From a virus: DNA of 44,387 nucleotides. The notes under the pieces are model-generated. The model made no database searches. It saw nothing but the letters and a program-made list of their open reading frames with translations, and had not been told where the DNA came from. Position numbers and translations under genes: made by a program. The DNA lies in the IMG/VR virus record IMGVR_UViG_3300007735_000869, positions 1 through 44,387 of that record, one strand, 5' to 3'. Below, in pieces: positions 3,113 through 26,721 of the stretch. Every line of letters starts with the position of its first letter. Position 1 is the stretch's first letter.

Positions 3113-3113
3113 A

Positions 3114-3413: not shown

Positions 3414-3414
3414 C

Positions 3415-3804: not shown

Positions 3805-3807
3805 TTT

Positions 3808-4705: not shown

Positions 4706-4731
4706 AAAAACTTAATGTTTGTAAAAAGTTA

Positions 4732-4762: not shown

Positions 4763-4794
4763 ATTTTATAGATTATATTTAAAATAAAAACTCA

Positions 4795-5118: not shown

Positions 5119-5165
5119 TTTATACTCTCAACAATAACAATTTAATTAGTATTAAAACCAATTTT

Positions 5166-5399: not shown

Positions 5400-5403
5400 A
5401 TAT

Positions 5404-6550: not shown

Positions 6551-6580
6551 AATTTATTTTTTATTTATGTATATATAATC

Positions 6581-6600
6581 TATATTTATGTATATTTATA
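6581..6600 (+). promoter_or_regulatory. Tandem TATATTTAT promoter-like boxes
   Basis: Two adjacent copies, TATATTTATG and TATATTTATA, lie 13-32 bases before the ribbon-helix-helix gene at 6613. They match the recurrent box of this window. The upstream stretch 6551-6580 is almost entirely A/T. Confidence 0.4.
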
Positions 6601-6612
6601 ATAAAGATAAAT

Positions 6613-6828
6613 ATGGAAACTAAAAAAAGAGTAATCACATCGGTAAAGATTCCCGATAACTTATACGAAGATTTTAAAATTATGAACGTAAGAACAAAAA
6701 TGAACTTACAAGATTTGGTAGAAAGAACTATATTCCTTTATTTAACAGAAAATAAATTTAGAGAAATGGTACACAACCAATTCAATACATACTATACAGG
6801 ATCAGACATTTTAAACGCAATAAAATAA
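6613..6828 (+). CDS. Ribbon-helix-helix DNA-binding protein, 71 aa
   Basis: The N-terminal strand KRVITSVKIP followed by NLYEDFKIMNVRTK and NLQDLVERTIFLYL gives the strand-helix-helix order of Arc/CopG-type repressors. In these, the strand of a dimer reads the DNA major groove. The gene has its own tandem promoter-like box and sits six bases before the first glycan gene. It could regulate the large glycan cluster or its own promoter. The target is not known. Confidence 0.68.
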   Translation: METKKRVITSVKIPDNLYEDFKIMNVRTKMNLQDLVERTIFLYLTENKFREMVHNQFNTYYTGSDILNAIK

Positions 6829-6833
6829 AGTAA

Positions 6834-8276: not shown

Positions 8277-8277
8277 T

Positions 8278-9585
8278 ATGAATAAACAATATTGCGTTAT
8301 TTCCTGCCCGATAGACACCTATTCAGGTTATGGAGCAAGATCAAGAGATTTCGTAAAAGCAATTTACGAATTAAAAAAAGAAGATTGGACAATTGAAATT
8401 CTATCTCAAAGATGGGGAGCGACTCCTTGGAATTATATAAAAGAGAACTCAAAAGATTGGAGTTTTTTGGAGCCTCTTATAAATAAAACAGGACAGATAA
8501 CACAACAGCCAGACATTTGGATTCAAGTAACAATTCCTAATGAATTTCAACCAATAGGAAAATTCAATATAGGAGTTACTGCCGGAATAGAAACAACTCT
8601 ATGTCACGCTTCTTGGTTAGATGGACTAAATAGAATGAATCTAAACTTTGTCTCATCAGAACACGCCAAATCAGTTTTTAAGAATACGTTTTTTGAAGAA
8701 AAGAATCAACAAGGTCAAGTCGTAAGACAAATAAAATTAGAGAAACCAGTAGAAGTGCTTTTTGAAGGAGTGGATTTAAATAAGTATTTTCATATCGAAG
8801 AAAAAGATTTGCAAAAAACAGAAATATTAGAAAGTTTAAATAGCATCAAAGAATCTTTTTGTTATTTGTTTGTTGGACATTGGTTGCAAGGAGAAATAGG
8901 CGAAGACAGAAAAAATGTTGCACTAATGTTAAAAACATTCTTAGAAACTTTTAAAGGCAAAAAAAATAAGCCTGCGTTAATAATGAAAACGTCTGGAGCT
9001 GGATCTAGTATCATGGATCGTGATGAAATTCTCAAAAAGATAGATATAATAAGAAACTTTATTGGTGATAAAGATTTGCCCAATGTATATCTTCTTCATG
9101 GAGATATGTTCGATGAAGATATGAATATATTATATAATCATCCAAAAGTAAAAGCTATGGTGAATCTGACAAAAGGAGAGGGATTTGGAAGACCTCTGTT
9201 AGAATTCAGTTTATCTAAAAAACCAATTATAGCTTCAAATTGGTCTGGCCATGTAGATTTTTTATCTGATGATTTTTGTTGCTTAGTTAATGGAGAAGTA
9301 AAACAAATACATCCATCAGCAGTTGTAGAGAATATGTTAATCCCAGAATCAGGTTGGTTTTCTGCAAATTTAGGAGAAGCGAAATATTATTTGAAAGATG
9401 TTTTTGAAGACTATGAAAAATATTTGGAAAAAGCAAAAAGACAAGCTTATAAATCAAAAATACAATTCTCGTTAGACAAAATGAAAGATTTATTGGCTAT
9501 TAATTTAGAAGTCATTCCTAAAAAAGTAGAATTAAAACTTCCTACTCTTAAAAAAATAGAATTACCTAAACTTAAAAAACTTTAA
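8278..9585 (+). CDS. GT-B glycosyltransferase, GT4-like, 435 aa
   Basis: A second GT-B enzyme. The N-terminus has GYGARSRDFVKAI, typical of the acceptor-domain start. The C-terminal domain contains GEGFGRPLLEFSLSKKPII, an E-x7-E donor-site motif, followed by ASNWSGHVDFL. It ends in a repetitive Lys/Leu/Pro tail (about residues 418-435, with K-L-P-T-L-K-K-I-E-L-P-K-L-K-K-L) that may be an interaction peptide. Donor and acceptor cannot be told from sequence. Confidence 0.85.
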   Translation: MNKQYCVISCPIDTYSGYGARSRDFVKAIYELKKEDWTIEILSQRWGATPWNYIKENSKDWSFLEPLINKTGQITQQPDIWIQVTIPNEFQPIGKFNIGVTAGIETTLCHASWLDGLNRMNLNFVSSEHAKSVFKNTFFEEKNQQGQVVRQIKLEKPVEVLFEGVDLNKYFHIEEKDLQKTEILESLNSIKESFCYLFVGHWLQGEIGEDRKNVALMLKTFLETFKGKKNKPALIMKTSGAGSSIMDRDEILKKIDIIRNFIGDKDLPNVYLLHGDMFDEDMNILYNHPKVKAMVNLTKGEGFGRPLLEFSLSKKPIIASNWSGHVDFLSDDFCCLVNGEVKQIHPSAVVENMLIPESGWFSANLGEAKYYLKDVFEDYEKYLEKAKRQAYKSKIQFSLDKMKDLLAINLEVIPKKVELKLPTLKKIELPKLKKL

Positions 9586-9586
9586 T

Positions 9587-9856
9587 ATGACTGAAAAAGA
9601 ATTCGTAACATGGTTCAAAGGTTTCGTATCAGCAGCCAACACTTTCAATATAACTCCAAAACAATGGGATTCTATTTGCGAACAATTAGAGAAAGTTAAA
9701 GAGATTAATGAGGAATCAAAAAGTTATAGTAGATATATGTTAGATATAGATACGAGTAATAGTAATTGGACTAGCACAACCATAACTAATGCAGATAGAA
9801 ATAACGTATCATATAAAAAAGATAATTTAGAAACAAAAACTATTTTAAATGACTGA
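9587..9856 (+). CDS. Hypothetical protein, 89 aa
   Basis: A small protein opening with a helical segment (EKEFVTWFKGFVSAAN, then ITPKQWDSICEQLEKV) and ending in a low-complexity Ser/Thr/Asn-rich tail. The N-terminal pattern is common in small phage proteins, but I cannot name its function. It starts one base after a glycosyltransferase and overlaps the following zinc-ribbon gene by eight bases, so it is part of the operon. Confidence 0.68.
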   Translation: MTEKEFVTWFKGFVSAANTFNITPKQWDSICEQLEKVKEINEESKSYSRYMLDIDTSNSNWTSTTITNADRNNVSYKKDNLETKTILND

Positions 9857-10298
9857 TAAAATTATAGACTGCCCAAATTGTAAAGAGAAGGCTTGTTGCT
9901 ATCAGACCCCTATAAATGAATTTCATAATTCATACGCTTGTTTCGGATGCGGATTTACCACAAATGATTTAATGATAGATGGAGAATTTAATTTTGAAGA
10001 GTTCGAATCTACGCTTCCCGAACTATATAAAGATTTAAAAAATAAAGATCACGAAGGTAGGATATGGTATCCTCAAGCAATTAATATTCTAGAGAAAGGA
10101 ACCGTTTTTGCTAATGGAAAATCAAAAACAAATTGGCAGTGGTCCGCGATCAAAACCGTAGAATTAACAGAAGAAGAAAAACAAAATCCAAAATTTAAAG
10201 GTCAAGCGTATAAATCAGATTCAAAAACTTTAGAAAATTTCGGAACAGATTTTATAGAAGCTTGTGACTATATAGGTTTTTTTGATATAAAAAAATAA
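9849..10298 (+). CDS. Zinc-ribbon protein, 149 aa
   Basis: An N-terminal ribbon is formed by CPNC (about residues 8-11) and CFGC (about 31-34), with an extra KACCYQ between them. The rest is an acidic linker (EFNFEEFESTLPELYKDL) and a C-terminal region with WYPQAINILEKGTVF. Proteins of this layout are found in large phages without known function. It is unusual to find one among glycosyltransferases; it might regulate or bridge components rather than make sugar. Confidence 0.68.
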   Translation: MTDKIIDCPNCKEKACCYQTPINEFHNSYACFGCGFTTNDLMIDGEFNFEEFESTLPELYKDLKNKDHEGRIWYPQAINILEKGTVFANGKSKTNWQWSAIKTVELTEEEKQNPKFKGQAYKSDSKTLENFGTDFIEACDYIGFFDIKK

Positions 10299-10304
10299 AT
10301 TTCA

Positions 10305-10925
10305 ATGCCATCAATAAGTTATGCAATACCCGTATGCAATGAGCATAGAGAGTTAGATAAATTACTTTCACTACTAATTGAATATAAACGATCGCAAGAC
10401 GAAATAGTAGTTCAATGCGATTTGGGAAACACAACTAGAGAAGTTTATGAAATTATTGAAAAATATAAATTGCATATAAAAGTTTTAGAGTTTGCATTAA
10501 AAGGAAATTTTGCAGCATTTAAAAATAATTTAAAAGAAAATTGCACAGGAGCTTGGATATTTCAAATAGACGCAGACGAACTATTACACGAAGAATTTTT
10601 ACAGCATCTTCCTCAAATTTTAAGAGATAATCCTACTGTAGAACTTTTCTGTTTACCAAGAATTAATACTGTCGAAGGCTTAACTCAAGAGCATATTGCA
10701 AAATGGAGATGGAACGTCAATGAAAAAGGATGGGTAAATTTCCCCGATATACAAACTAGAATAATTCAAAATTCTCCAAAAATACAATGGGTTGGTAAAG
10801 TTCATGAAGTAATCTATGGACATAGATCTCAAGCAGTTCTACCCATACAAGAAGAATATTGTATACTACACCATAAACATATAAGACGCCAAGAAGTGCA
10901 AAATACATTATATTCAATGATATGA
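10305..10925 (+). CDS. GT2-like glycosyltransferase, short, 206 aa
   Basis: The N-terminus SISYAIPVCNEHRELDKLLSLL is the start of a GT-A/GT2 nucleotide-binding fold, and FQIDADELLHEEFL holds the D-x-D metal-binding motif. The segment KWRWNVNEKGWVNFPDIQTRI, followed by a His before GHRS and HHKHIR, resembles WaaE/KdtX-type lipid-A-core glucosyltransferases. At 206 aa it is shorter than the family norm but looks complete. The stop overlaps the gmd start by four bases. Confidence 0.8.
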   Translation: MPSISYAIPVCNEHRELDKLLSLLIEYKRSQDEIVVQCDLGNTTREVYEIIEKYKLHIKVLEFALKGNFAAFKNNLKENCTGAWIFQIDADELLHEEFLQHLPQILRDNPTVELFCLPRINTVEGLTQEHIAKWRWNVNEKGWVNFPDIQTRIIQNSPKIQWVGKVHEVIYGHRSQAVLPIQEEYCILHHKHIRRQEVQNTLYSMI

Positions 10926-11893
10926 AAAAAGCATTAATAACTGGAATAAACGGACAAGACGGATCATACCTAGCAGAGTATCTAATCGAAATAGGATACG
11001 AAGTCCACGGTATTTTAAAAAGAAATTCTGTAGCAGAAAATCAAACAGCGAGATTGGATAACATATTTGATAAATTGAATTTACACTACGCTGATATGAC
11101 AGATATATCATCTTTATATAGAGTAATAAATCAAGTTAAACCTGACGAGATATATAATTTAGCGGCTCAATCTCACGTTAGAATATCCTTCGATCAGCCT
11201 ATATATACTGTAAATGCAACTGGTGTCAGTGTTCTTAATTTATTAGAAGCGGTAAAAGAAATAGATCCATCTATAAAAATATATCAAGCGTCGTCTTCTG
11301 AAATGTTTGGGAACTCTATAGATAAAGACGGTTATCAAAGAGAAACAACTCCCATGAATCCAGTGTCTCCTTACGGATGCGCAAAAGTTTTTGCCTATAA
11401 TATAAGTAGAAACTACAGACATTCATATAACATGTTTATATCTAACGGAATACTATTTAATCATGAGAGTCCTAGAAGAGGTACTAACTTCGTAACAAAT
11501 AAAGTATGTAAAGAAGCTGTAAAAATAAAATTGGGATTATCTAACGAGTTAAAATTAGGCAATTTAAATGCAACTAGAGATTGGGGACATGCAAAAGATT
11601 ATGTTAAAGCAATGCATCAAATTCTGCAATTAGATAAACCTGACGATTTTATATGCGCTACTGGAATATCTCACTCTGTTCAAGAACTTTGTGAATATGT
11701 GTTTACAGCATTGGATCTAGATTGGAAGAATTACGTAAAACAAGACGAAAAATTTTTAAGACCTGAGGAATTAAATGATCTCAAAGGAGATGCATCAAAA
11801 TTGATTGGTTCTACTGGTTGGAAACCGACATATACTTTCAAATCCATGTTATTGGAAATGATTAATTATTGGATAAAACATTACGAAAAATGA
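10922..11893 (+). CDS. gmd: GDP-mannose 4,6-dehydratase
   Basis: Converts GDP-D-mannose to GDP-4-keto-6-deoxy-D-mannose, the first step to GDP-L-fucose and related sugars. The NADP-binding motif TGINGQDGSYLAEYL, the conserved HGILKRNS, YNLAAQSHVRISFDQP, SSSEMFG, and the active-site YxxxK (YGCAKVFAYN) are all present, as is the NHESPRRGTNFVT stretch typical of Gmd. At 323 aa it is slightly shorter than many homologues. It overlaps the next gene as ATGA, making a gmd-fcl pair. Confidence 0.94.
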   Translation: MKKALITGINGQDGSYLAEYLIEIGYEVHGILKRNSVAENQTARLDNIFDKLNLHYADMTDISSLYRVINQVKPDEIYNLAAQSHVRISFDQPIYTVNATGVSVLNLLEAVKEIDPSIKIYQASSSEMFGNSIDKDGYQRETTPMNPVSPYGCAKVFAYNISRNYRHSYNMFISNGILFNHESPRRGTNFVTNKVCKEAVKIKLGLSNELKLGNLNATRDWGHAKDYVKAMHQILQLDKPDDFICATGISHSVQELCEYVFTALDLDWKNYVKQDEKFLRPEELNDLKGDASKLIGSTGWKPTYTFKSMLLEMINYWIKHYEK

Positions 11894-12795
11894 GTAAAAT
11901 ATTAATAACAGGAGGAACTGGGTTAATCGGTTCCGCTTTTAAACAAGGGAAAAAAGTTGGATCTAAAGATTATGATCTTAGAGATCAATATCAAACAAAC
12001 CAAATGCTTTCAGATAACGATCCAGACATAGTCATTCATACAGCAGCCAAAGTAGGAGGAATTGGAGCAAATATGCAATATCCTGCCGATTTTTATTATG
12101 ATAATATAATGATGAATACGAACGTTATAGAAAGTTCATTTCAACACGGAGTAAAAAAATTAGTTTGTTTTTTATCTACATGCGTATTTCCTGATAAAAT
12201 AGAATATCCTCTGACCGAAAATAAAATACATCAAGGAGAACCCCATACGAGTAATGCTCCGTACGCTTACGCAAAAAGAATGGCTGATGTTCAAATCCAA
12301 GCTTATAATAGTCAATATCAAACAAAATATTTTTCAGTTATTCCGTGTAACGTTTACGGAATTAATGATAATTTTGATTTACAAAATGGTCATGTGATAC
12401 CAATGTTAATACACAAGTGCTGGTTAGCAAAACAAAACAATATTCCTTTTGAAATTTGGGGAGATGGATCTGCTCTTAGAGAGTTTATTTTTGCAGAAGA
12501 CGTTGCGAATATAATTCTAAAATTAGTGGACACATACGATGGAATAGATCCAATTATAATATCCAATCCTCAAGAATATTCTATAAAGCAGGTAGTTGAA
12601 TTGATTGTAAAATATATGGAATTTGATGGAGATATTAAATGGCTTGCCGATAAGCCAAATGGACAGCATAGAAAGCCTTCATCAAATAAAAAATTATTGA
12701 GTGTAATAGGAGAATATAATTTCACTACTTTAGAAATAGGTTTAAAAAATACAATAGAATGGTTTAAATTGAATCATAACAAAATAAGGAAATAA
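11890..12795 (+). CDS. fcl: GDP-L-fucose synthase
   Basis: Epimerises and reduces GDP-4-keto-6-deoxy-mannose to GDP-L-fucose. It shows the Rossmann motif ITGGTGLIGSAF, the family's VGGIGANMQYPADFYYDNIMMN segment, SSTC-like LSTCVFPD, and the catalytic Y-x3-K in APYAYAKRM. The C-terminal half has GDGSALREFIFAEDVA, a substrate-binding hallmark. The start at 11890 overlaps the gmd stop and gives the usual N-terminus MSKILITGG; an upstream in-frame ATG at 11869 is less likely. With gmd it supplies the donor for the fucosyltransferase domains encoded at 20760. Confidence 0.93.
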   Translation: MSKILITGGTGLIGSAFKQGKKVGSKDYDLRDQYQTNQMLSDNDPDIVIHTAAKVGGIGANMQYPADFYYDNIMMNTNVIESSFQHGVKKLVCFLSTCVFPDKIEYPLTENKIHQGEPHTSNAPYAYAKRMADVQIQAYNSQYQTKYFSVIPCNVYGINDNFDLQNGHVIPMLIHKCWLAKQNNIPFEIWGDGSALREFIFAEDVANIILKLVDTYDGIDPIIISNPQEYSIKQVVELIVKYMEFDGDIKWLADKPNGQHRKPSSNKKLLSVIGEYNFTTLEIGLKNTIEWFKLNHNKIRK

Positions 12796-12805: not shown

Positions 12806-14119
12806 ATGCAAGATATTATAAAATTAGTAGAAGAGTACATAAACAATAAACACTCTCAAAAAAAATGGGAAGCAGGTAAAGATTGGGTACAATACGCAGG
12901 TCCATATTTTAGTAGTGAAGAATATATAGCAGCTGTTAAAACTTTATTGGGAGAGTGGCTCGTATTAGGAGCAGAAGCAATTAAGTTTGAAAAAACATTT
13001 CCAGAGAAATTTGGTAAAAGATTTGGGTTATTAACAAATAGTGGATCAAGCGCCAACCTTCTTATGATGCTGGCGATGACATCTAAAAGAGGTAGAAATT
13101 TACCAAAAGGTACAAAAGTCATAACTCCTATTGCTGGATTTCCAACAACTATTAATCCTATTTTTCAAGTAGGATTTACTCCAATTTTTGTAGACATAGA
13201 ATTAGAAACTCTTAATTTAGATTTAGATCATGTAGAAAGAGTTTGTATAGAAAATCCTGATGCTAAGATAATAACATTTGCGCATGTTTTAGGAAATCCT
13301 CCAAACATGAATAAACTCATGAATATAGTAGAGAAATATAATTTAATTCTCTTAGAAGATTGTTGTGATGCTTTAGGATCTTTATATGATGGTAAAAAAT
13401 TAGGGTCTTTTGGAGAATTAGCTAGTTGTTCATTTTATCCAGCACACCATATTACTATGGGCGAAGGAGGATTTGTAGCAGCTAAAGATCAAAATACAGA
13501 AAGAATAATTAGAAGTTTTAGAGAATGGGGTAGAGGTTGCTATTGCGTAGGTAAACAAAACTTATTAGCAAACGGATCTTGTGATTGTAGATTTAATAAT
13601 TGGTTGCCTTCTCTTCCTGAAGATTTATTTGATCACAAATATGTTTACGAAGAAATTGGATATAATTTAAAACCGATTGAATTACAAGCTTCTATAGGGT
13701 TAGTGCAAATGAAAAAAATGAAAGAAATAGGAGAAAAGCGTAGAGAGAATTATTCTAATCTTTTTAAAGCATTCTCTAAATATGAGCAATATTTCCATTT
13801 ACATAAAGCACAAGAATTGTCGGATCCAGATTGGTTTGCGTTTCCAATTACTTTGAGAGATGATGCTCCATTTAAAAGATCAGACATATGTCAATTTTTA
13901 GAATCTAACAAAATTCAAACAAGACCATATTTTGCAGGAAATATAATGCTTCAACCAGCCTACGCAGGAATGATGGACCCAAAAGAAGTTATTGAAAAAT
14001 TCCCTATTGCCCGTAAAGTAACAACTGATACATTCTTTTTAGGAACAAGTCCAGTAATAAACAAAGAAAAAATAGATTACATAGAATCAATTCTAGATAA
14101 GTTTATATTGACATTATGA
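12806..14119 (+). CDS. RfbH-type PLP-dependent 3-dehydratase (DegT family), 437 aa
   Basis: DegT/DnrJ/EryC1 aminotransferase fold in which the Schiff-base lysine is replaced by histidine: SFYPAHHITMGEGG, His214. This is the mark of 3-dehydratases such as RfbH/E1 and ColD, which remove the C3 hydroxyl of 4-keto-6-deoxyhexoses. A C-Y-C (245/247) and C-D-C (259/261) pair sits where E1 enzymes bind their [2Fe-2S] cluster, favouring the RfbH branch. The length matches that family. RfbH normally works with a flavin/Fe-S reductase on CDP-sugars; neither that reductase nor a CDP-sugar pathway is visible nearby, so the substrate may be the GDP-sugar from gmd. The product would be a 3,6-dideoxy sugar. 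Confidence 0.88.
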   Translation: MQDIIKLVEEYINNKHSQKKWEAGKDWVQYAGPYFSSEEYIAAVKTLLGEWLVLGAEAIKFEKTFPEKFGKRFGLLTNSGSSANLLMMLAMTSKRGRNLPKGTKVITPIAGFPTTINPIFQVGFTPIFVDIELETLNLDLDHVERVCIENPDAKIITFAHVLGNPPNMNKLMNIVEKYNLILLEDCCDALGSLYDGKKLGSFGELASCSFYPAHHITMGEGGFVAAKDQNTERIIRSFREWGRGCYCVGKQNLLANGSCDCRFNNWLPSLPEDLFDHKYVYEEIGYNLKPIELQASIGLVQMKKMKEIGEKRRENYSNLFKAFSKYEQYFHLHKAQELSDPDWFAFPITLRDDAPFKRSDICQFLESNKIQTRPYFAGNIMLQPAYAGMMDPKEVIEKFPIARKVTTDTFFLGTSPVINKEKIDYIESILDKFILTL

Positions 14120-15099
14120 AAATAGCATTTTTGACTGAAATGGGATTTACAGGAAAAATCTCTGAAGATCATCCTAATATGAGAACAGAATTTGCATGGA
14201 TGAATGCACTTAATGCTGACCATTTCCACATTTCTATGTTTTCTCAAGTGGAAAATTATGATCATGTTTTTTTAATATTCCCTAAAGGAGAAGTGTATTT
14301 AAATACAATAGGATCTAAATTAATAGACAAAATTAACCCAATTAGTGATTTATTGAGATCTGATTTTCAACAAGTAATAAAAAATAAGAACTCAAAATTA
14401 CATTTTGTTCAAGAAGGTCCTCACTGGCTGTTTAATGATTATGAGATAGTAGATCAAATAAATTTCTATAATCTTATAAGTGAATGCGACACTATATTTG
14501 CGCATAATCAAGAAGATAGAAAGTATTATTGTGGAATGTTCCCTGATAAGCCTGTTCATGTTTTACCTACTCTAATGATAGAAACTTTAATAAAGGATAT
14601 AGAACCTATTAAAACAGATCGGGTAATCATTGGTGGTAATTTCTCAAGATGGTATGGAGGATTTGAAAGTTATACGGTAGCTCAAGAATTCGATACACCT
14701 ATCTGGGCTCAAGATTCTCATTCAAAAAGAGAATACGAAGATCAACTAGAAAATATAAATCATTTTCCAAGAATGATGTGGAATGAGTGGATGAGACAAT
14801 TATCTTCATTTAAATATGCAGTGCATTTAATGCCAACGGTGGCTGCAGGAACATTTAGTTTGAATTGCGCATATTTTGGAATACCGTGTATAGGAAATAA
14901 AAAAGTAGATACACAATCAGCATGTCATCCTCTATTATCGGTTGATGTAGAAGATATTTACTCTGCAAGAAATTTAGCGAAAAAATTAAAAGAAGATAAA
15001 GATTTTTACGAGCGTTGTAGTAGAATGGCTAAAGAGAGTTATAAATCTTTTTACCATAAAGATAATTGGTTGCAGTATATGAATAAAGTTTTAAATTAG
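14116..15099 (+). CDS. Probable GT-B-like glycosyltransferase, 327 aa
   Basis: It overlaps the dehydratase stop by four bases. The N-terminus MKIAFLTEMGF and the middle segment RVIIGGNFSRWYGGFES look like the two Rossmann halves of a GT-B fold. A C-terminal stretch HLMPTVAAGTFSLNCAYFGIPCIG takes the place of the classical donor site but lacks the E-x7-E motif. DFYERCSRMAKESYKSFYH near the end is typical of GT4-like C-termini. It is a likely but divergent glycosyltransferase. Confidence 0.65.
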   Translation: MKIAFLTEMGFTGKISEDHPNMRTEFAWMNALNADHFHISMFSQVENYDHVFLIFPKGEVYLNTIGSKLIDKINPISDLLRSDFQQVIKNKNSKLHFVQEGPHWLFNDYEIVDQINFYNLISECDTIFAHNQEDRKYYCGMFPDKPVHVLPTLMIETLIKDIEPIKTDRVIIGGNFSRWYGGFESYTVAQEFDTPIWAQDSHSKREYEDQLENINHFPRMMWNEWMRQLSSFKYAVHLMPTVAAGTFSLNCAYFGIPCIGNKKVDTQSACHPLLSVDVEDIYSARNLAKKLKEDKDFYERCSRMAKESYKSFYHKDNWLQYMNKVLN

Positions 15100-15104: not shown

Positions 15105-16463
15105 ATGATTAAACTTATAATATTCGATTTAGACGGAGTGCTAGTCGAAGCAAAACATATACACTACGAAGCTCTAAATAAAGCTTTAGGTAGTAAATAC
15201 TCTATTGATTGGAACGAGCATCTATCAGTGTATGATGGTTTAAAAACAAACCAAAAACTACAAATGTTGACTGAGAAAAAAGGTTTGCCGCAAAATATTC
15301 ATGGAGAAGTTTGGAAGAATAAGCAAAAATACACATTAGAAGCGTTATCGAATCTTAAACCATCAATTCAATTACAAGTGTGTTTAAAAACCTTAGTAGA
15401 TCAGGGTTATAAAATTGCTTGTTGTAGTAATAGCATAAGAAAAACGATATTAACAGTTTTAAGTAAGTTGAACATAATAGAATATTTTGACTTGATTCTC
15501 TCTAATGAAGATGTAAAAAATAGTAAGCCTCATCCTGAAATATATTGGAAAGCCATTTCAACCATGGGATATTTGCCAGAAGAAGCTCTAATAGTCGAAG
15601 ATTCTCCTTACGGTTTATTAGCTGCTAGTCGAAGTAAAGCTAATATTATGAGAGTGGGTTCTCCTAAAGATATTACATATAATAACATATATAAACATTT
15701 AAATAAAGAAAAAATGAACAATACACCAAAATGGAAAGATGACAAACTGAATGTGTTGATTCCTATGGCTGGTGCTGGATCTAGATTTGAGCAAGCAGGT
15801 TACACATTTCCAAAACCTCTGATAGATGTTAAAAACAAACCTATGATTCAAGTAGTCGTAGAAAATCTAAATATAGATGCAAACTATATTTACATAGTAC
15901 AAAAAAAGCATAGAGAAAAATATAATTTAGACACGTTGTTAAATCTTATTACTCCAGGTTGTAATATAGTTGAAGTAGATGGATTGACTGAGGGTGCAGC
16001 ATGTACTGCGTTATTAGCTAAGCAATTCATAGATAATGATAATCCACTGTTTTTCGCAAATTCAGATCAATTTGTTGAATGGGATTCTAATGAGTTTATG
16101 TATAAGATGCAAGAAACAGATTCAGACGGAGGAATAGTATCTTTTAAAGCCACTCATCCTAAATGGTCGTTTGCAAAAGTAAATCAAGACGGTTTAGTAA
16201 CTGAAGTAGCAGAAAAAAATCCAATATCAGATATAGCAACTGTTGGATACTATTATTGGAAACATGGTTCTGATTTTGTAAAATATGCCGAACAGATGAT
16301 TGAAAAGAACATCAGAGTAAATAACGAGTTTTATGTGTGTCCTGTATTTAATGAAGCAATTCAAGACAACAAACAAATAAGAATTTTCGATATTAAAAAG
16401 ATGTGGGGATTAGGAACTCCAGAAGATTTAAATGATTTTTTAAAAAAATATAATAATGAATAA
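15105..16463 (+). CDS. HAD phosphatase - sugar nucleotidyltransferase fusion, 452 aa
   Basis: Domain 1 (about residues 1-200) is a HAD-superfamily phosphatase/phosphoglucomutase: FDLDGVLVE (Asp8, Asp10), a Ser/Asn segment CCSNS, KPHPEIYW and VEDSPYGLLAA. Domain 2 (about 215-450) is a GT-A nucleotidyltransferase: LIPMAGAGSRF (about 218-228), FPKPLIDV, a 'FFANSDQFV' metal-binding stretch, and TVGYYYW. Together they could prepare a sugar phosphate and activate it to a nucleotide sugar. No frameshift is needed; the linker is natural sequence. Substrate unknown. Confidence 0.85.
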   Translation: MIKLIIFDLDGVLVEAKHIHYEALNKALGSKYSIDWNEHLSVYDGLKTNQKLQMLTEKKGLPQNIHGEVWKNKQKYTLEALSNLKPSIQLQVCLKTLVDQGYKIACCSNSIRKTILTVLSKLNIIEYFDLILSNEDVKNSKPHPEIYWKAISTMGYLPEEALIVEDSPYGLLAASRSKANIMRVGSPKDITYNNIYKHLNKEKMNNTPKWKDDKLNVLIPMAGAGSRFEQAGYTFPKPLIDVKNKPMIQVVVENLNIDANYIYIVQKKHREKYNLDTLLNLITPGCNIVEVDGLTEGAACTALLAKQFIDNDNPLFFANSDQFVEWDSNEFMYKMQETDSDGGIVSFKATHPKWSFAKVNQDGLVTEVAEKNPISDIATVGYYYWKHGSDFVKYAEQMIEKNIRVNNEFYVCPVFNEAIQDNKQIRIFDIKKMWGLGTPEDLNDFLKKYNNE

Positions 16464-18032: not shown

Positions 18033-18725
18033 ATGGTGTTCTTAGATGTAATAAAATTATTAGAAAACAAAAAAGGCTTAGAATTTGGTGGACCGACAGA
18101 ATTGTTTGGTTCAAATAGTTACGGAATGCCGCTATATCCGCATGTGCATTTAGATGGAGGCAATATTTTTGAAAATAACTATTTTCAATATACGATAAAT
18201 GATCAATTTAATTATTATGGAAAAACTGGATCACAATATAATGTTGATTGCGCAAATATAGAAGATATTCAAAAAATAAATAAGACATACGATTTTATAT
18301 TGACTTCTCATGTTATAGAACATATTGCGAATCCCATGAAAGCAATAAAAAGTTGGGTAGATAATCTACTAAATGAAAACGGATATATTCTGTCTATCAT
18401 ACCAGATTATAGAAACTGTTTTGACAGAAATAGACCACTAACTCAAATAGATCATATAATTGAAGATTATAAAAACGACACTAAAGAAGATGATACTACA
18501 CACATAGAGGAGCAGAAACAACTTCACGATTGGTCTTGTGGTGGACATAGGGATTTTTATAGTCTATGTGAAATAAATTATAAAACAAGAGTAGTGCATC
18601 ATCATACATTCACTCCAGAAACTGTAGATCAATTATTTTTAGAGTGTGGACTTGAATCTATTACGACATTTAAGCACGATGATTTAAACATAGTGAATTT
18701 ATCTAAAATTAAAAAAAATGATTAA
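18033..18725 (+). CDS. SAM-dependent methyltransferase (Methyltransf_11-like), 230 aa
   Basis: A weak motif I (KKGLEFGGPTELFG) is followed by a clear YDFILTSHVIEHIANPMKAIK segment (motif II/III of the class I fold with the conserved H-x-x-E-H) and NGYILSIIPD. The C-terminal part has a His-rich VVHHHTFTPETVDQLFLECG typical of the family. Likely modifies a sugar. The stop overlaps the next gene by eight bases. Confidence 0.78.
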   Translation: MVFLDVIKLLENKKGLEFGGPTELFGSNSYGMPLYPHVHLDGGNIFENNYFQYTINDQFNYYGKTGSQYNVDCANIEDIQKINKTYDFILTSHVIEHIANPMKAIKSWVDNLLNENGYILSIIPDYRNCFDRNRPLTQIDHIIEDYKNDTKEDDTTHIEEQKQLHDWSCGGHRDFYSLCEINYKTRVVHHHTFTPETVDQLFLECGLESITTFKHDDLNIVNLSKIKKND

Positions 18726-20316
18726 TATAAACTATTTATCGCACAATAGAACTAATTTCAGTGAATTGACTTTTCATTTTTTGAATAAAATTAAAAAAGA
18801 AAACAAACTTAAAATTAAATTAACAATACTATGCAGTAAAAGTTGTAATTTTAATTTACATAAACTAGAGGATATAAGTACTGAAGTTAAAATTTTTGAA
18901 TCTGAGAATAATTATTTATCGAAAATTCAATATGCTATAAAAAGCGATTGCAAATATTCTATTAAATTAGACGAGGACTGCTTCATAAATAACCATGTTT
19001 GGGATTATATAATTGAAAATATAGAAATTTTAGATAACCCAGAAAATTTATTACTGTCTCCCACAATGACTAATAACATTCCATCATGTGATTTGTTTAT
19101 AGAAGATTATGTAAAGGACCAAGATTTTAAAAATAGAATATATGAATGTTTTTTGAATAGAGAAATGCCAGTAGGATTATGGGGAGTAGACTATTCGCCC
19201 TTAAATCAATATACAATATTAGCTAATAGTTGGAATTCCAAAGATTATTATGCTGGACTTTCATTATTGGAAACCCCAATAAAAGGCATGCATCCTCTTA
19301 GAATCAGTTACGAAGCTCAAGTTTTAATAAACGATTATATATTGCAAAATGTAGATAGATTTTTAAACAAAAACGATTATTCTATAGTTGAATTAATTTC
19401 TCCCTATTTCACAAATAGTTTATTTGCAATAAAAACATCAGAGTGGAAAAATATATTAGATAACATGTATGTTGACCAATTTGATGAAATCGCTTTAAAT
19501 GATTATAAGAAGACTACGAACAAGAAATTTTTATTTATTAAAAATGGATTTGGTATTCATCCTATGTATAATACTGTTTTTGGAAATAAAAATCCTTGGG
19601 GTATAGGAGCAGAAAATGGAGAGCAATCAGAAAAAGATTTTTTTAACAGTTTTAAAAATATAATAATCAAAAAAATACATTGTATAGGTGATAGCCACTC
19701 GGCAGTTTTCAGTGGAAAAGAAGAAATGGTGCCAATCTGGCCTGAATTATCCGATGACATTACTGAATACTTTAAAACGTATAGAATAGGTCCTGCTACT
19801 GCATATAAATTAGAAAATAAAATAGAAATCATTAATAGTATTATAGAAAATAATGTTAATAAAGACAATGATCATGTGTTGTTTTGTTTTGGAGAAGTAG
19901 ATATTAGAGCTCATCTAATAAAACAGTCAGAGTTGCAAAACGTGGACATCTTAAAAATAGTTGAAGAGTGTGTAGATCAATATTTTAAAGTCATACTGTA
20001 TTATAAACAGTTGGGATACAAAACTATAGCGTGGGGACCAATAGCATCTTGGCATGAATCTAAGCCATACACAGGAGGGCCGTCGTTTGGAACATGCTTA
20101 GAAAGAAATATAGTTACTGAAATGTTTAATAAGAGATTAGAAATGAGATGCGATCAATATGATGTAGACTTTCTTACTATTTTTTATGAAATGATAGATG
20201 ATAATAAAATAACCATCCCTAAATACTTAGATAATTGGGAAGGTTCTCATATACATCTTAGCCAAACTTCCATGCCTCTTATAATTGATGCTTTTAAACG
20301 TAAAAATCTTATATGA
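18718..20316 (+). CDS. Two-domain protein: GT-A-like N-terminus and SGNH hydrolase C-terminus, 532 aa
   Basis: The N-terminal part (about 1-310) resembles a glycosyltransferase GT-A fold, with YSIKLDEDCFINNHVWDYI as its acidic motif. The C-terminal part (about 320-530) is SGNH-like: IHCIGDSHSAVF (block I, Ser326), FCFGEVDIRAH (block III), and EGSHIHLS (block V region, His511/His513). SGNH domains in glycan clusters usually add or remove acetyl or similar acyl groups. The fusion suggests transfer of a sugar followed by O-acylation or trimming. The GT half is the less certain assignment. Confidence 0.72.
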   Translation: MININYLSHNRTNFSELTFHFLNKIKKENKLKIKLTILCSKSCNFNLHKLEDISTEVKIFESENNYLSKIQYAIKSDCKYSIKLDEDCFINNHVWDYIIENIEILDNPENLLLSPTMTNNIPSCDLFIEDYVKDQDFKNRIYECFLNREMPVGLWGVDYSPLNQYTILANSWNSKDYYAGLSLLETPIKGMHPLRISYEAQVLINDYILQNVDRFLNKNDYSIVELISPYFTNSLFAIKTSEWKNILDNMYVDQFDEIALNDYKKTTNKKFLFIKNGFGIHPMYNTVFGNKNPWGIGAENGEQSEKDFFNSFKNIIIKKIHCIGDSHSAVFSGKEEMVPIWPELSDDITEYFKTYRIGPATAYKLENKIEIINSIIENNVNKDNDHVLFCFGEVDIRAHLIKQSELQNVDILKIVEECVDQYFKVILYYKQLGYKTIAWGPIASWHESKPYTGGPSFGTCLERNIVTEMFNKRLEMRCDQYDVDFLTIFYEMIDDNKITIPKYLDNWEGSHIHLSQTSMPLIIDAFKRKNLI

Positions 20317-20747
20317 AACTAATATCACATAGAGGAAACATTAATGGTAGAATTATTGAAGCAGAAAATAACCCAGAATATATTAATGATACTATTCGTT
20401 TAGGATATGAAGTAGAAATTGATATGTGGTGGATTGATGGTAGAATATACTTAGGACATGATGAACCGCAATATGAAGTAAGTGATGAATGGTTAGAAGA
20501 TAGAATTGATAAGTTATGGGTTCATTGTAAAAATATAGAATTATTAAATTGGATAAGAAGTACAGAATTACACTATTTTTGGCATGAGAATGACACAGTA
20601 ACATTGACGTCAAAAAATTATATCTGGGCATATCCAGGTAAGCAACCTATAATAGGGAGCATAGCTGTAATGCCTGAATTGTACGGTGACAATATTGAAA
20701 AGTGCATAGGCGTATGTTCAGACTACATAATAAATTTTAAAAAATAA
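20313..20747 (+). CDS. GDPD-like phosphodiesterase domain, minimal, 144 aa
   Basis: LISHRGNINGR at the N-terminus, YEVEIDMWWIDGRIYLGHDEP, and WVHCKN match the start of glycerophosphodiester phosphodiesterase-like (PI-PLC-like TIM barrel) proteins, with the catalytic His (HRG), Glu/Asp (E-x-D) and second His (HDE). At 144 aa it is shorter than the roughly 240-aa family norm but matches small GDPD-like versions in sugar clusters. It could cleave or form a phosphodiester-linked decoration. It overlaps the previous gene's stop by four bases. Confidence 0.7.
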   Translation: MKLISHRGNINGRIIEAENNPEYINDTIRLGYEVEIDMWWIDGRIYLGHDEPQYEVSDEWLEDRIDKLWVHCKNIELLNWIRSTELHYFWHENDTVTLTSKNYIWAYPGKQPIIGSIAVMPELYGDNIEKCIGVCSDYIINFKK

Positions 20748-20759: not shown

Positions 20760-23700
20760 ATGGAATTTACATTCGGAATAATTACGAGTTATGGAACATC
20801 TGAATTTCTTCTCAGAATAATAGATCAAATAAAGGCTGAAGTTCCCAAAGATAAAAGAGAGATTATTGTAGTAGGAGGAAGCAATCCTAATATAGAAGAC
20901 GTTATACATCTAGACTTCAATGAAAACGAAAGAGCAATGTGGATAACAAGAAAAAAGAATTTAATTACGCACAACAGCACTAAAGAAAACATAGTATACT
21001 TACATGATTATATAGGTTTTACGCCAGGTTGGTACGAAGGGCAACTTAAAAAGGGTAATAATTTCGATGTGAGAATGGATAAAATTATAAATTATGATGG
21101 AACCAGATTCAGAGATTGGTCTATATGGCCTCACAATGGTAACGAGATGGATTCTATAATAGGAAGAGAATGTTTAATTCCATATAATATAGATCAATTA
21201 GTCAAATATATGTATATATCAGGAACTTACTGGATCGCAAAAAGACGAGTGATGTTAGAATTTCCATTAAATGAGAATTTATTGTGGGGTCAAGGAGAAG
21301 ACGTAGAGTGGTCAAAGCAAGTAAGAGAGAAATATAGTTTTCAGATGAACGAAAACTCTTCAGTAGATATATTAAAACCTGGTAAAGATCGAGCTTTTGA
21401 ATACGCAACAGAAGATACTATAAATAAAGCATTGGAATTTCTTAATGCTAATAATTCTCATAAAAGCAATAAAAGAAAATTCGTAATAATATCGACTGTT
21501 TATAACAAAGGTAAGTTTGTTGGATATAATGTAAATAGTCTAAAACAGCAAAGCTATAATAATTTTATTGCGGTATATGGATATGATAAATCGACAGATA
21601 ATAGTTTAGAATATTTAAAATCTTCAATAGGAGACGATGATAGATTTATTATTCATATTAATGATAATCCAGGATGCTACTTAAATTGTTATATGTCTAC
21701 ATATGAATTTTTAAAAGAAAATCATCTTATCAATCCAGAAGATGTTATAGTAGAAATAGATGGAGATGATTGGCTTTTACATTCATTCGTTTTACAGTAT
21801 ATAAATGACGTGTATGAATCCAATCCAGATATTTGGATGACTTACGGACAATATATAACGTTTCCAAATGGAGAATATGGAGGTCATTTTAATTTATCAT
21901 TAAATGATCAAGTTGATATACACAATCAATATAGAAACGCAGAATTTCCATATAGTCATTTAAAAACATATAAAGCATTTTTATTAGATAGTATTACAGA
22001 CGAAGATCTTACTGATCCTCAAACTGGAAAATATTTTAATGCTGCTGCCGACTTCGCATTATGTATGCCTTTAGTAGAGCAAGCAGGAAAAAATAGGATT
22101 TTTAGAGTAGATCAACCGATGTATGTTTACAATACCTCCACTGATTTAGAATCAGAAACAAATAACAGACTTTCTTTACAAAAAGAAGTAGAGATGAGAA
22201 TAAGGAAAAAATCTCCAAAAGCTAGATTGACTAGCAAACCATATTCTAATTATAATATTGTAAATGCTTTAGCTGGAGGATTAGGAAACATGATGTTTCA
22301 AATAGCCGCAGGATATTCTTTATCTAAAGAAGCGAATGGAAAATTTTTCTTATATCCAAACGAGATAGGTGGAATGATGCATAAACATCCAACTGAATAT
22401 TTAAATACAGTTTTTAGAAATTTAAAAATTCTAGATATTAATGAATCATTTAAACAAATAGAGCATAATTCATTTCATTACGAGCCCATTAATTTAAACA
22501 ATGAAAACTGCAGGAATTTATTTTTGGTTGGAGGATTTCAATCTTTTAAATATTTTGAAAAGCACTCTAAAGATATTAGATCTCTATTTTCTGCGCCTTT
22601 AGATTTGGTATCCAACTTAAAACTTAAATACGACGTAGATAATAAAGTATCAATACATGTCAGAAGGGGAGATTACATAAATTTGCCTAATCATCATCAT
22701 AATTTAGCTATATCATATTATAAAAATGCTATTAACTATTTTAAAGGTTTTAAATTTATTGTATTTAGCGATGATATTAATTGGTGTAAGAATAACTTCA
22801 TCGGAGATAATTTTACATTTGTAGAAAATACTACAGACGTAGAAGATTTATATTTAATGAGTATGTGTGAACATCATATAATAGCTAATTCTACATTTAG
22901 TTGGTGGGGAGCATGGTTAAACCAAAATGAAAACAAGAAAGTGGTATATCCAAATAAGTGGTTTGGACCAGTTTATAAAGATTTTAGAACCAGCGATTTA
23001 TTCCCAGAAGATTGGATTTGTTTAGAAGAAGATTTTCCTGAATTGCAAGTAAACTTATTCGATAATGCTTTTAGACATTTATCAAATGATAATGGCAGAT
23101 ATTCTTCTGTACACGGTAAAATATCAAATAAGATTGAATTTGTTAGAGATCTTTATCAATATGATGGAATAACTATTTTTACTGACGACTATTTAAATAC
23201 TGATATCGTAAAACAAATTGAGAGCGAAAAGAAAATAGGTTGGTTATTAGAACCAAGACAGATACAACCATTAAGATATGATCAATTCGAAAATTATAAA
23301 GATAATTTTGATTATATAATAACACATGATGAAAAACTCCTAACACAATATCCAGAAAAAACCAAATTTGGAATTGTAGGAGGAACTTGGATAAAAACTA
23401 AAAACTACGGATTACATAATAAGACTAAGAACATATCAATAATATATTCTAATAAAACAGATTTAGAAGGACATAGATTGAGACATGAAGTTGCAAGAAA
23501 TATCAACGCATTGGATCTATATGGAAGAGGCACTTCTAATCCTATTGAAAACAAAGAAGATTCTCTATTAGATTACAGATATTCAATAGTAATAGAAAAT
23601 AGTAAAGCGAAAGGTTATTTTACAGAAAAGCTAATTGATAGTTTAATAACTGGCACAATTCCAATTTATTGGGGTTGTATAAATATACAAGATTTCTTTG

Positions 23701-23876
23701 ATACGAGAGGAATGTATATAGTAAATAATTTAGAAGACATTAAAAATATTATTGGTAATTTAGGAGAAAGAGATTATTTTAGTAAAATGGAATACGTTAA
23801 GAATAATTTTGAGTTAGCTAAAAAGTACGTGATAACCGAAGATTGGATGTACGAAAATATTTTTAATATAAAATAA
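20760..23876 (+). CDS. Four-domain glycosyltransferase: GT2 - GT2 - GT11 - GT10, 1038 aa
   Basis: Domain 1 (about 1-230): GT-A fold starting FTFGIITSYGTSEFL. Domain 2 (about 240-480): GT2, KFVIISTVYNKGKFVG with the metal motif VEIDGDDWLL. Domain 3 (about 498-765): GT11 alpha-1,2-fucosyltransferase, with NALAGGLGNMMFQIAAG, IHVRRGDYINLP (about 631-642) and NSTFSWWGAWL (about 708-718). Domain 4 (about 770-1038): GT10 alpha-1,3-fucosyltransferase, with YSIVIENSKAKGYFTEKL and TGTIPIYWG (about 940-970). GDP-L-fucose from Gmd and Fcl would feed domains 3 and 4. One polypeptide could therefore extend a chain and add two fucoses. No membrane anchor is visible. Confidence 0.88.
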   Translation: MEFTFGIITSYGTSEFLLRIIDQIKAEVPKDKREIIVVGGSNPNIEDVIHLDFNENERAMWITRKKNLITHNSTKENIVYLHDYIGFTPGWYEGQLKKGNNFDVRMDKIINYDGTRFRDWSIWPHNGNEMDSIIGRECLIPYNIDQLVKYMYISGTYWIAKRRVMLEFPLNENLLWGQGEDVEWSKQVREKYSFQMNENSSVDILKPGKDRAFEYATEDTINKALEFLNANNSHKSNKRKFVIISTVYNKGKFVGYNVNSLKQQSYNNFIAVYGYDKSTDNSLEYLKSSIGDDDRFIIHINDNPGCYLNCYMSTYEFLKENHLINPEDVIVEIDGDDWLLHSFVLQYINDVYESNPDIWMTYGQYITFPNGEYGGHFNLSLNDQVDIHNQYRNAEFPYSHLKTYKAFLLDSITDEDLTDPQTGKYFNAAADFALCMPLVEQAGKNRIFRVDQPMYVYNTSTDLESETNNRLSLQKEVEMRIRKKSPKARLTSKPYSNYNIVNALAGGLGNMMFQIAAGYSLSKEANGKFFLYPNEIGGMMHKHPTEYLNTVFRNLKILDINESFKQIEHNSFHYEPINLNNENCRNLFLVGGFQSFKYFEKHSKDIRSLFSAPLDLVSNLKLKYDVDNKVSIHVRRGDYINLPNHHHNLAISYYKNAINYFKGFKFIVFSDDINWCKNNFIGDNFTFVENTTDVEDLYLMSMCEHHIIANSTFSWWGAWLNQNENKKVVYPNKWFGPVYKDFRTSDLFPEDWICLEEDFPELQVNLFDNAFRHLSNDNGRYSSVHGKISNKIEFVRDLYQYDGITIFTDDYLNTDIVKQIESEKKIGWLLEPRQIQPLRYDQFENYKDNFDYIITHDEKLLTQYPEKTKFGIVGGTWIKTKNYGLHNKTKNISIIYSNKTDLEGHRLRHEVARNINALDLYGRGTSNPIENKEDSLLDYRYSIVIENSKAKGYFTEKLIDSLITGTIPIYWGCINIQDFFDTRGMYIVNNLEDIKNIIGNLGERDYFSKMEYVKNNFELAKKYVITEDWMYENIFNIK

Positions 23877-23881: not shown

Positions 23882-24838
23882 GTGAAAAAAATAGTGTATA
23901 TAACAGGGTGTTTAGGTTTTATAGGATCATATATTACAAGAGCGTGCTTAAAAAAAGGATGGTATGTTAAAGGAGTTGATAAGATGACATACGCTGCGAA
24001 TAAAGACATTTTAAATGAATTTAAAAAATATGATAATTTCTCTTTTGTTCACTGCGATATTAATGATTTAAAATTTTTATATGATTGCGACTATATCATC
24101 AATACGGCTGCAGAAACGCATGTTGGAAATAGCATAGCAAGTAGTGTAGAATTTGTGAGATCAAATATAGATGGAGTTCATAACTTATTAGAACTTATAA
24201 AAAATCATAGAGGAGAAAATTCTACAAAACCAGTATTGATACATTTTAGTACAGACGAGGTTTATGGAGATATAGAAATTGGAGCTCATACTGAATTAGA
24301 CTTATTAAAACCGAGTAATCCTTATTCTGCAACAAAAGCAGCAGCAGATATGCTCGTAATAGCTTGGGGAAGAACTCATAAAGTTCCATATATGATTGTT
24401 AGACCGACTAATAATTATGGAATAGGTCAATACGTAGAGAAGTTAATTCCTAAAGCAGTTAAATGCCTTAACTTGGGTAGAAAAATACCGCTTCACAATA
24501 ATGGAGAACCTTATAGAAATTGGTTGCATGCAGCAGATACGGCTGAAGCTATAATAACTTTACTAGAGCGCGGAACTATCGGAGAAATTTATAATATAGC
24601 AGGAGGATTTGAACAAAAAAATATAGATACTATAAAACAAGTTATACAGTATTATAAAAATCAGCAATTAGAATCTTATATAGATTTTATAGATTTTTCA
24701 TGTAGTAGACCTGGACAAGACGTTAGATATGCATTGGATGATTCGAAACTTAGAAATTTAGGATGGTCACCTAAAATCAATTTTTCTAAAGAAATAAAAA
24801 ATATTGTAAATTATTATAAAACAAAATTTATTTGGTAA
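23882..24838 (+). CDS. NAD-dependent sugar 4,6-dehydratase/epimerase, RmlB-like, 318 aa
   Basis: Rossmann motif TGCLGFIGSYITRACL, NTAAETHVGNSI, FSTDEVYGD and YSATKAAADM (active-site Y-x3-K) are those of dTDP-glucose 4,6-dehydratases, as is RPTNNYGIGQ. At 318 aa it is a little short. The start is GTG at 23882, five bases after the previous stop; it gives the expected MKKIVYITG start, and no better ATG is present. It could make a 4-keto-6-deoxy sugar that the RfbH-type enzyme or the TPP enzyme uses. Confidence 0.85.
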   Translation: MKKIVYITGCLGFIGSYITRACLKKGWYVKGVDKMTYAANKDILNEFKKYDNFSFVHCDINDLKFLYDCDYIINTAAETHVGNSIASSVEFVRSNIDGVHNLLELIKNHRGENSTKPVLIHFSTDEVYGDIEIGAHTELDLLKPSNPYSATKAAADMLVIAWGRTHKVPYMIVRPTNNYGIGQYVEKLIPKAVKCLNLGRKIPLHNNGEPYRNWLHAADTAEAIITLLERGTIGEIYNIAGGFEQKNIDTIKQVIQYYKNQQLESYIDFIDFSCSRPGQDVRYALDDSKLRNLGWSPKINFSKEIKNIVNYYKTKFIW

Positions 24839-25552: not shown

Positions 25553-26182
25553 ATGATAAATAAAAATGATCTAATTTCTTTCGAAGACGAAATCGGAAAT
25601 CTATTTAATGAAGGCAAAATAAGAGCGCCTATCCATTTATATTCAGGTAATGAAGATCACATGATAGAGATATTCAAAGAAATAGATATTGAAAACGATT
25701 GGGTTTGTTGCACTTGGAGAAATCATTATCAAGGATTATTAAAAGGAATATCTAAGAGTATTTTAAAAAATAAAATAGTAAATGGAAAGTCGATGGTAAT
25801 GAACTTACCAGAATTTAAATTTATATGCAGCTCAATAGTAGGAGGAATTCCATCGATAGCCACAGGAATAGCGCTTGCTATAAAATTACAAAATAAATCT
25901 AATAGGGTGTGGTGTTGGGTTGGAGATATGAGTGCAGAAACCGGCGCTTTCCACGAAGCTTATAAGTACAGTTTAAATCATAATCTTCCTATAACGTTTA
26001 TAGTGGAAGACAACAAAAAATCCGTGTGCACTCCGACTCCTGACGTATGGAAAAGAGATACTCCATACTATTTAAATTCTGAATATAGAGGAGGAGTATT
26101 AAAACAACAAAACTTATACTATTATCAATACGAAAATAAAAAATTTCCTCATGCTGGTGCAGGAGTGAGAGTTCAATTTTAA
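25553..26182 (+). CDS. Thiamine-diphosphate enzyme, alpha (E1-alpha/transketolase-N-like) subunit, 209 aa
   Basis: The chain begins with a helical segment, then GGIPSIATGIALAIK, and carries the thiamine-diphosphate motif GDMSAETGAFHEAYKYSLNH...VEDN (about residues 124-157), the G-D-x...N pattern of pyruvate-dehydrogenase E1-alpha and transketolase. It is much shorter than ordinary E1-alpha (about 330 residues) but keeps the cofactor core. The adjacent gene is the matching beta-type subunit. In antibiotic sugar pathways such split E1-like pairs attach a two-carbon branch to a keto-deoxysugar; that is a plausible role here. Confidence 0.82.
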   Translation: MINKNDLISFEDEIGNLFNEGKIRAPIHLYSGNEDHMIEIFKEIDIENDWVCCTWRNHYQGLLKGISKSILKNKIVNGKSMVMNLPEFKFICSSIVGGIPSIATGIALAIKLQNKSNRVWCWVGDMSAETGAFHEAYKYSLNHNLPITFIVEDNKKSVCTPTPDVWKRDTPYYLNSEYRGGVLKQQNLYYYQYENKKFPHAGAGVRVQF

Positions 26183-26184
26183 TT

Positions 26185-26721
26185 ATGAAATATTTCGAAG
26201 AATTAAAAAAAGCAATGAGTTTATTGGCGGAGCATCCCAAAACTATGTTCATAGGTCAAGCTGTAGAATATGAAGGGACAGGGTTATATGATTCTCTAAA
26301 ACATTTACCATCAGAAAAAAAAATAGAGTTGCCTGTTGCAGAATATTTACAAACAGGAATGGCTAACGGAATGGCAATAGAGGGAATGATACCAGTATCC
26401 ACCTATCCAAGATGGAATTTTTTATTAATGGGAGTTGATCAAATAGTGAATCACATGGATAAGTTTATAACAATGTCTGAAGGTCAATGCTCTCCGAAAA
26501 TAATTATAAGAGTGTCTGTAGGAAGCGAACATCCTGTGGATCCCCAATGTCAACATAAAGGTAATTTCTCTAACGCATTTAGAGAGATGCTTCAAAATAC
26601 AGAGGTCGTAGAATTACACGAACCAGAAGACATTATTCCGTCTTATCAAAAAGCGATTAATAGAACTGATGGAATTAATACAATATTGGTAGAATTCGCC
26701 GATTATATAAAAATTAAATAA
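26185..26721 (+). CDS. Thiamine-diphosphate enzyme, beta (E1-beta/transketolase pyrimidine-domain-like) subunit, 178 aa
   Basis: The protein matches the pyrimidine-binding domain of E1-beta: GQAVEYEGTGLYDS, ELPVAEYLQTGMANGMAIEG (the Glu likely activates the cofactor), IPVSTYPRWNFLLMGVDQIVNH and IIIRVSVG. It stops where the transketolase C-terminal domain would begin, so the pair is a minimal heteromer. It starts two bases after the alpha subunit, and its stop touches the next SDR gene's start (TAATG). Active without the C-terminal domain or not is unknown. Confidence 0.82.
   Translation: MKYFEELKKAMSLLAEHPKTMFIGQAVEYEGTGLYDSLKHLPSEKKIELPVAEYLQTGMANGMAIEGMIPVSTYPRWNFLLMGVDQIVNHMDKFITMSEGQCSPKIIIRVSVGSEHPVDPQCQHKGNFSNAFREMLQNTEVVELHEPEDIIPSYQKAINRTDGINTILVEFADYIKIK

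Follow-up and report, generated by a model that had tools for sequence, protein, structure and literature searches.

We found that a single open reading frame of the window (the whole 44,387-base stretch of viral DNA analyzed here) links four transferase-like domains into one protein, with two that belong to fucosyltransferase families, and that in proteins of this kind a GT2 domain has been exchanged by recombination in front of the two fucosyltransferase-family domains. The frame is uninterrupted over 1038 residues, a frameshift artefact was rejected as the source of the fusion, and a simple hydropathy scan predicted no transmembrane segment in the protein. Its layout is as follows.

20760-23876, + strand: four-domain fusion ORF (ATG start, 1038 aa, no internal stop)
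20760-21455, + strand: D1, N-terminal GT-A-fold module (aa 1-232; HDY and GQGED motifs)
21456-22253, + strand: D2, GT2 domain, exchangeable slot (aa 233-498; DxDD motif; PF00535, 6e-6)
22254-23039, + strand: D3, GT11, alpha-1,2-fucosyltransferase family (aa 499-760; PF01531, phrog_2644, HxRRGDY)
23040-23873 (stop codon to 23876), + strand: D4, GT10, alpha-1,3-fucosyltransferase family (aa 761-1038; PF00852, 2nzw, 2nzx)

Searching the translated protein against Pfam gave three matches, all above the gathering score, to GT2 (residues 243-407), GT11 (542-754), and GT10 (886-998). Foremost was D3, a GT11 family member (100 bits to PF01531, gathering 23.9, E 1.5e-28) that is also spanned by PHROG 2644 'glycosyltransferase' at residues 505-754 (2e-55) and carries the motifs HVRRGDY-633, of the HxRRGDY form, and NSTFSWW-710. 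D4 is a member of GT10 (33.2 bits to PF00852, gathering 23.9, E 5.3e-8), and in the PDB it matched the H. pylori alpha1,3-FucT 2nzw both by phmmer (6.7e-9 over residues 928-998) and with a 14-row family profile (1.1e-14), along with a fold match to 2nzx over 351 columns. Its motifs are ENSKAKGYFTEK-946 and GTIPIYWG-965, the former bearing the EN...Y.TEK donor-site signature, whose E, N, E, and K are invariant in 14 relatives. The HMM searches that the first-pass annotation had suggested thus recovered both families, and two GDP-fucose-type additions by these domains are predicted. D2 belongs to GT2 (26.7 bits to PF00535, gathering 23.3), with a DxD-type motif at DGDDW-334ff and a fold match to the chondroitin polymerase K4CP (Z 23 over 235 residues), and it comes closest to GT2 genes that stand alone in three viral loci (L033/L035/L037, 68-69% identity). 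Accordingly, the GT2-GT2-GT11-GT10 order proposed in the first-pass annotation stands for the last three domains, but not for D1 as a member of a curated GT2 model.

Here, Pfam gave no match for D1 itself (residues 1 to about 232) and no meaningful match for three D1 relatives. An AlphaFold2 model of D1, which is a poor one (mean pLDDT only 61), aligned with 6p61 at Z 12.9 over 165 residues and with many GT-A enzymes at Z 11-13, including WrtF, TarS/TarP, and RmlT, and a six-row D1 profile reached RmlT of L. monocytogenes (8bz4) at 1.3e-4. The signature residues are LHDY-81ff and GQGED-177ff. As D1 is blank in Pfam and GT-A-like in its model, 'GT2' is an approximate name, fair for the fold though not for the curated family, and we treat D1 as a transferase of GT-A type whose family is uncertain, with a fold that depends on a low-confidence model. 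In the full-length model of the fusion, D1 was left unfolded (pLDDT <50) because only 4 of the 17 alignment rows cover it. The module may be inactive or take a different donor.

A search of the phage collection with D1 gave no match. In the viral contigs, D1 occurs as a stand-alone gene in at least some 75 distinct ORFs (relatives L017-L020 and L182-L260) and lies directly after a GT10 gene in 12 loci, and for 38 of the 77 distinct D1 loci the flanks that were fetched include GT11 or GT10. Among the matches listed, which may lack records very close to the window's own, D1 is joined to GT2-GT11-GT10 in this window alone, and such singularity would suit an assembly error that merged two phage genes. 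We consider that very improbable, since the join is clean and in frame, running end to end from a nearly complete D1 through a linker of about 10 residues into GT2 with no stop, and since the usual D1 companion genes sit just upstream in the same contig. Rather, to judge from the sequence around the join, D1 would have been gained through loss of a stop codon. The companions in question, both found near stand-alone D1 in L017-L020, are a small 'SHRGN' protein (homologues there 48-55% identical, and a similar gene adjoining D1 in L111) and a HAD phosphatase-nucleotidyltransferase protein (genes 60-76% identical), from which D1 possibly takes its sugar nucleotide. The two HAD-nucleotidyltransferase parts are fused in the window and in L017-L020, while in L111 each has its own gene beside the other, and gene fusion is therefore a theme of the cluster. 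The L111 entry (positions 1-12064) is titled Methylococcaceae bacterium TMED69 and has GT2, GT10, GT11, and two D1 genes among phage-like neighbors; it is possibly a large phage binned with the genome.

The 44,387-base record is probably a fragment. It carries a phage endolysin and a phrog_1617 protein, one relative of which is annotated 'minor head protein'. Positions 1-25000 of the window had no DNA similarity match to known phages, and the isolate matches closest to the fusion protein are mostly Synechococcus phages. The fusion lies in a glycan island (6.8-28.8 kb) of nucleotide-sugar and transfer genes, which comprises two GT4-type and further GT2-type transferases, three methyltransferases, gmd, fcl, an RfbH-like dehydratase, the HAD-nucleotidyltransferase, an RmlB-like dehydratase, and a split E1-type thiamine enzyme. 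The principal genes are given below.

6834-8276, + strand: GT4-type glycosyltransferase 1, at the island start (PF00534, 3.4e-12)
8278-9585, + strand: GT4-type glycosyltransferase 2 (weak PF00534, 6.7e-4; phrog_2170, 1e-16)
10922-11893, + strand: gmd, GDP-mannose 4,6-dehydratase, donor supply (PDB GMD, 1e-95)
11869-12795, + strand: fcl, GDP-L-fucose synthase, donor supply (PDB human GDP-fucose synthase, 4e-78)
15105-16463, + strand: HAD phosphatase and nucleotidyltransferase fusion, candidate donor supply for D1 (PF13419/PF00483)
20313-20747, + strand: small 'SHRGN' protein, D1 companion, immediately 5' of the fusion
23882-24838, + strand: NDP-glucose 4,6-dehydratase-like (RmlB-like), immediately 3' of the fusion (TIGR01181, 302 bits, below the cut-off of 365)

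That gmd and fcl share a cluster with the fusion, as the first-pass annotation had stated, is borne out by these PDB matches, the pair lying 8-10 kb upstream. Against the curated models, gmd scores 394 bits (TIGR01472, under the cut-off of 415) and fcl 240 bits (NF047922, under the cut-off of 500), and both have catalytic-type motifs (SSE-125 and YxxxK-151 in gmd; STC-103 and YxxxK-132 in fcl). The true fcl start is probably the ATG at 11890, which overlaps the gmd stop.

Other genes of the island deserve mention in their own right. Just 3' of fcl, the RfbH-like PLP 3-dehydratase (12806-14119; 467 bits, above the cut-off of 423) has paired cysteines at CYC-245 and CDC-259 and would yield a 3,6-dideoxysugar precursor, though a matching reductase partner was not identified. 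The 327-residue protein encoded at 14116-15099 lacks a Pfam or NCBIfam match and is 65-88% identical to proteins of the viral glycan islands in L035, L043, L044, and L045, a likeness that marks it as a protein of no assigned family that is conserved among the glycan clusters of phages. In the 532-residue protein at 18718-20316, about 310 residues match 319-324-residue products of phage genes near D1 (L017 and L018), and an extra C-terminal stretch of about 220 residues, starting CIGDSHS, is perhaps an SGNH-type hydrolase; going by this alignment, the protein is a further domain fusion in the island. Finally, an E1-type thiamine enzyme is split between two adjacent genes at 25553-26721, one half matching PF00676 and the other PF02779, with a reductase-like gene after them, and a single 400-residue gene product in L013 matches both families. 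A branched or two-carbon-extended sugar is a possible product of the split enzyme.

To place the fusion among its relatives, viral contigs were searched with the whole protein, a fusion alignment, D1, and D4, which returned at least about 255 loci, some of them overlapping; the contigs are metagenomic, some of them may stem from one population sampled twice, and locus counts are lower bounds. As stand-alone genes in complete, distinct viral ORFs, GT10 was found at least 114 times, GT11 at least 104, GT2 at least 84, and D1 at least 75. Fused forms comprised at least 10 GT2-GT11-GT10 proteins plus one with an extra C-terminal domain, at least three GT11-GT10 ORFs, and at least four GT2-GT11 ORFs, two of these with an FkbM domain in front. 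This fusion is not a chance one, since at least 11 distinct viral proteins share the order GT2-GT11-GT10. Very often, the same genes stand separately side by side, in that order (for example L075, L084, and L094) or as GT2-GT10-GT11 (L071, L072, and L080). The FkbM methyltransferase domain was seen added on the N-terminal side in L043 and L045 and on the C-terminal side in L034 and L075. No fused form was found among the 80 GTDB loci listed (single domains or a GT2 pair only), in 198 Bacteroidota genomes, or in plasmids; as far as these searches reach, the fusion therefore looks to be a viral one. In the literature, we found no paper on GT11-GT10 fusions. The first-pass annotation had called the four-domain protein unusual, and this now applies to the D1 addition, so far unique to this contig, but not to the three-domain form, which is a recurring viral family.

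Most fused relatives have gmd and/or fcl nearby. However, the fetched flanks of the L030, L031, and L036 fusions held no gmd and no strong fcl match, so that the donor there may differ or be host-derived. In L030 (4992-9325), a 1078-residue GT2-GT11-GT10 protein has a GT29 sialyltransferase-like C-terminal end (Pfam 1.1e-4, just below the cut-off), and directly after it comes a gene for a cytidylyltransferase (CMP-sugar-synthetase-like). From its domains, this fucosylation core is apparently extended by a sialic-acid-type transfer, and the adjoining gene suggests that an added domain can bring its donor gene along.

All trees here are quick ones. In that of GT10, most fusions form one compact main group, to which the window belongs (moderate support), and a single clade of all GT11-GT10 fusions was rejected (AU p 9e-5). 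On the GT10 sequences, then, the GT11-GT10 fusion is judged to have arisen at least twice, L287/L293 being independent. For GT11, in a set without L287/L293, a single origin of all fusions was not rejected (p 0.5). More conspicuously, the modules of one protein do not agree in their relationships. L002 and L004 share 91% identity in GT11 and 89% in GT10 but 54% in GT2, and along the DNA their sliding identity is 94-98% in the upstream gene, 66-75% through the GT2 module and a small GT2 gene that precedes it, and about 87-99% once the GT11 module begins. Moreover, L069/L024/L026 resemble L002/L004 in GT11 (64-65%) and GT10 (75-82%) but not in GT2 (32-34%), whereas with L005/L028/L030 they share 73-79% in GT2 and only 50-64% in GT11/GT10. 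A single clade of the fused GT2 domains was rejected as well, with a p of 2e-53 that should be read as 'strongly', the group having been picked after the tree was seen. From these discordant identities it follows that recombination has exchanged the GT2 slot on more than one occasion. This exchange inside a fused protein, judged from sequence comparison, is the more interesting fact, and it was absent from the first-pass annotation. By the same evidence, GT11-GT10 appears to be a stable core with extra domains added at either end.

On balance, we lean towards a soluble multi-activity glycosyltransferase whose four domains work on one glycan, with two fucose-type additions, probably on the phage virion, in the manner of the PBCV-1 proteins A064R and A111/114R. 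D1 and D2, as GT-A domains, would add backbone sugars to the growing glycan, and GT11 and GT10 would each attach one fucose-type sugar to it, using GDP-L-fucose supplied by the phage-encoded gmd and fcl. Tethering of the domains would keep the intermediate local and fix the set of sugars added, and phages would alter the glycan by module swapping, with the GT2 slot recombined and further domains placed at the ends. Sequential transfer to one glycan is suggested by the repeated fusion of the same activities and by the donor genes in the same cluster. The assembly line envisaged in the first-pass annotation is likewise favored by Rosetta-stone evidence, that is, by neighboring and partly fused genes, although consecutive action is something we infer from the fusions only. 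We likewise infer that all four domains are active, in what order they act, which linkages they make, on what acceptor, and for what purpose. More tentatively, and short of an even chance in our estimate, the family could be a combinatorial line in which various GT modules recombine at the same in-frame junction before GT11-GT10 and thereby change the virion or cell glycan, comparable by analogy with the shuffling of polyketide synthase modules; among forms built from GT2-GT11-GT10 and a GT-A module, the window protein would then be the longest.

As for the acceptor, a cytosolic phage protein is the most likely one, and mycobacteriophages provide a known case of virion glycosylation (PMC12619734). 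Unlikely, though to be taken seriously, is that the fusion instead remodels the host surface polysaccharide (O-antigen or capsule) in infection, with a host carrier and export, so as to block superinfection or hide the cell. Such is the usual reading of cyanophages in which gmd, fcl, and the fucosyltransferases are genes of their own (S-SCSM1, PMC9602691; S-SRM01), yet that published reading is itself an inference; the bacterial GT11 homologue WbgN does modify O-antigen (PMC11987014), and the cluster has many nucleotide-sugar genes, the RfbH-like and RmlB-like ones included. What speaks for the virion is that the island was found to encode neither a flippase nor a polymerase nor an initiating transferase of the polytopic kind, and that a hydropathy scan found no polytopic membrane protein on the island coding strand or in nearly all relatives checked. 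The missing flippase is weak evidence, as a phage could borrow that of the host.

The sugars added would be something other than fucose if the donor were a relative of GDP-fucose, such as GDP-colitose or GDP-L-galactose. This we hold improbable, in spite of the RfbH-like 3-dehydratase that adjoins fcl, because RfbH-type enzymes have CDP-sugars as substrates, fcl scores clearly as a GDP-fucose synthase against the PDB, and gmd plus fcl is the more regular pair among relatives. It is nonetheless true that GT11 enzymes transfer colitose and L-galactose besides fucose (PMC11987014), and a GT10-type domain of the chlorovirus PBCV-1 is predicted to fucosylate a glucose (PMC7826918), so that a CAZy family does not fix linkage or acceptor. 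The same point weighs on the first-pass idea of a doubly fucosylated Lewis/H-type epitope that mimics an animal host. H and Lewis fucosyltransferases do belong to the GT11 and GT10 families, but membership leaves linkage and acceptor unfixed, and nothing about a phage fragment whose fusion protein has mostly Synechococcus phages as its nearest isolate matches points to an animal host to mimic, nor is there any sign of an animal-associated one. Neither the Lewis/H-type end nor the host mimicry is thus supported, and we give this epitope hardly any credence.

If the favored reading is true, the swap of one in-frame module within a single enzyme would be enough for phages to diversify a surface glycan, and quick change of antigenic or receptor-facing sugars would thereby be explained. 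The fused relatives would then offer a natural matched enzyme set, with the same fucosylation core and a different front, for testing the addition made by each module, as well as a compact single-enzyme route to doubly fucosylated oligosaccharides. Bacterial viruses would also gain a counterpart of the multi-domain glycosyltransferases of algal giant viruses.

Among known systems, the bacterial two-domain synthases K4CP and PmHS2 resemble the fusion in having tandem GT domains in one chain, in keeping with the D2 fold match, but they are polymerases with two alternating activities and no fucosyltransferase. The cyanophage clusters of S-SCSM1 and S-SRM01 bring together gmd, fcl, an alpha-1,2-fucosyltransferase, and other GTs, though all as separate genes (PMC9602691), and in the Synechococcus phage S-SRM01 the gmd, fcl, GT10-like, FkbM, and GT11 genes each stand apart. 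Closest in architecture is A111/114R of PBCV-1 (GalT-XylT-FucT), in which several viral GT domains likewise share one chain and a GT10-type fucosyltransferase, modelled on H. pylori FucT, is also C-terminal (PMC7826918). It differs in coming from an algal virus, in having three domains and no GT11, and in an N-terminal domain modelled on LgtC. The domains of A111/114R are assigned to consecutive sugars of one glycan, and the activity shown is nucleotide-sugar hydrolysis only (PMC7826918). The PBCV-1 protein A064R (RhaT-RhaT-methyltransferase) is a multi-domain viral transferase too, with different sugars and families, and its three domains build the end of the virion N-glycan in consecutive units, with activities shown in vitro (PMC9614988).
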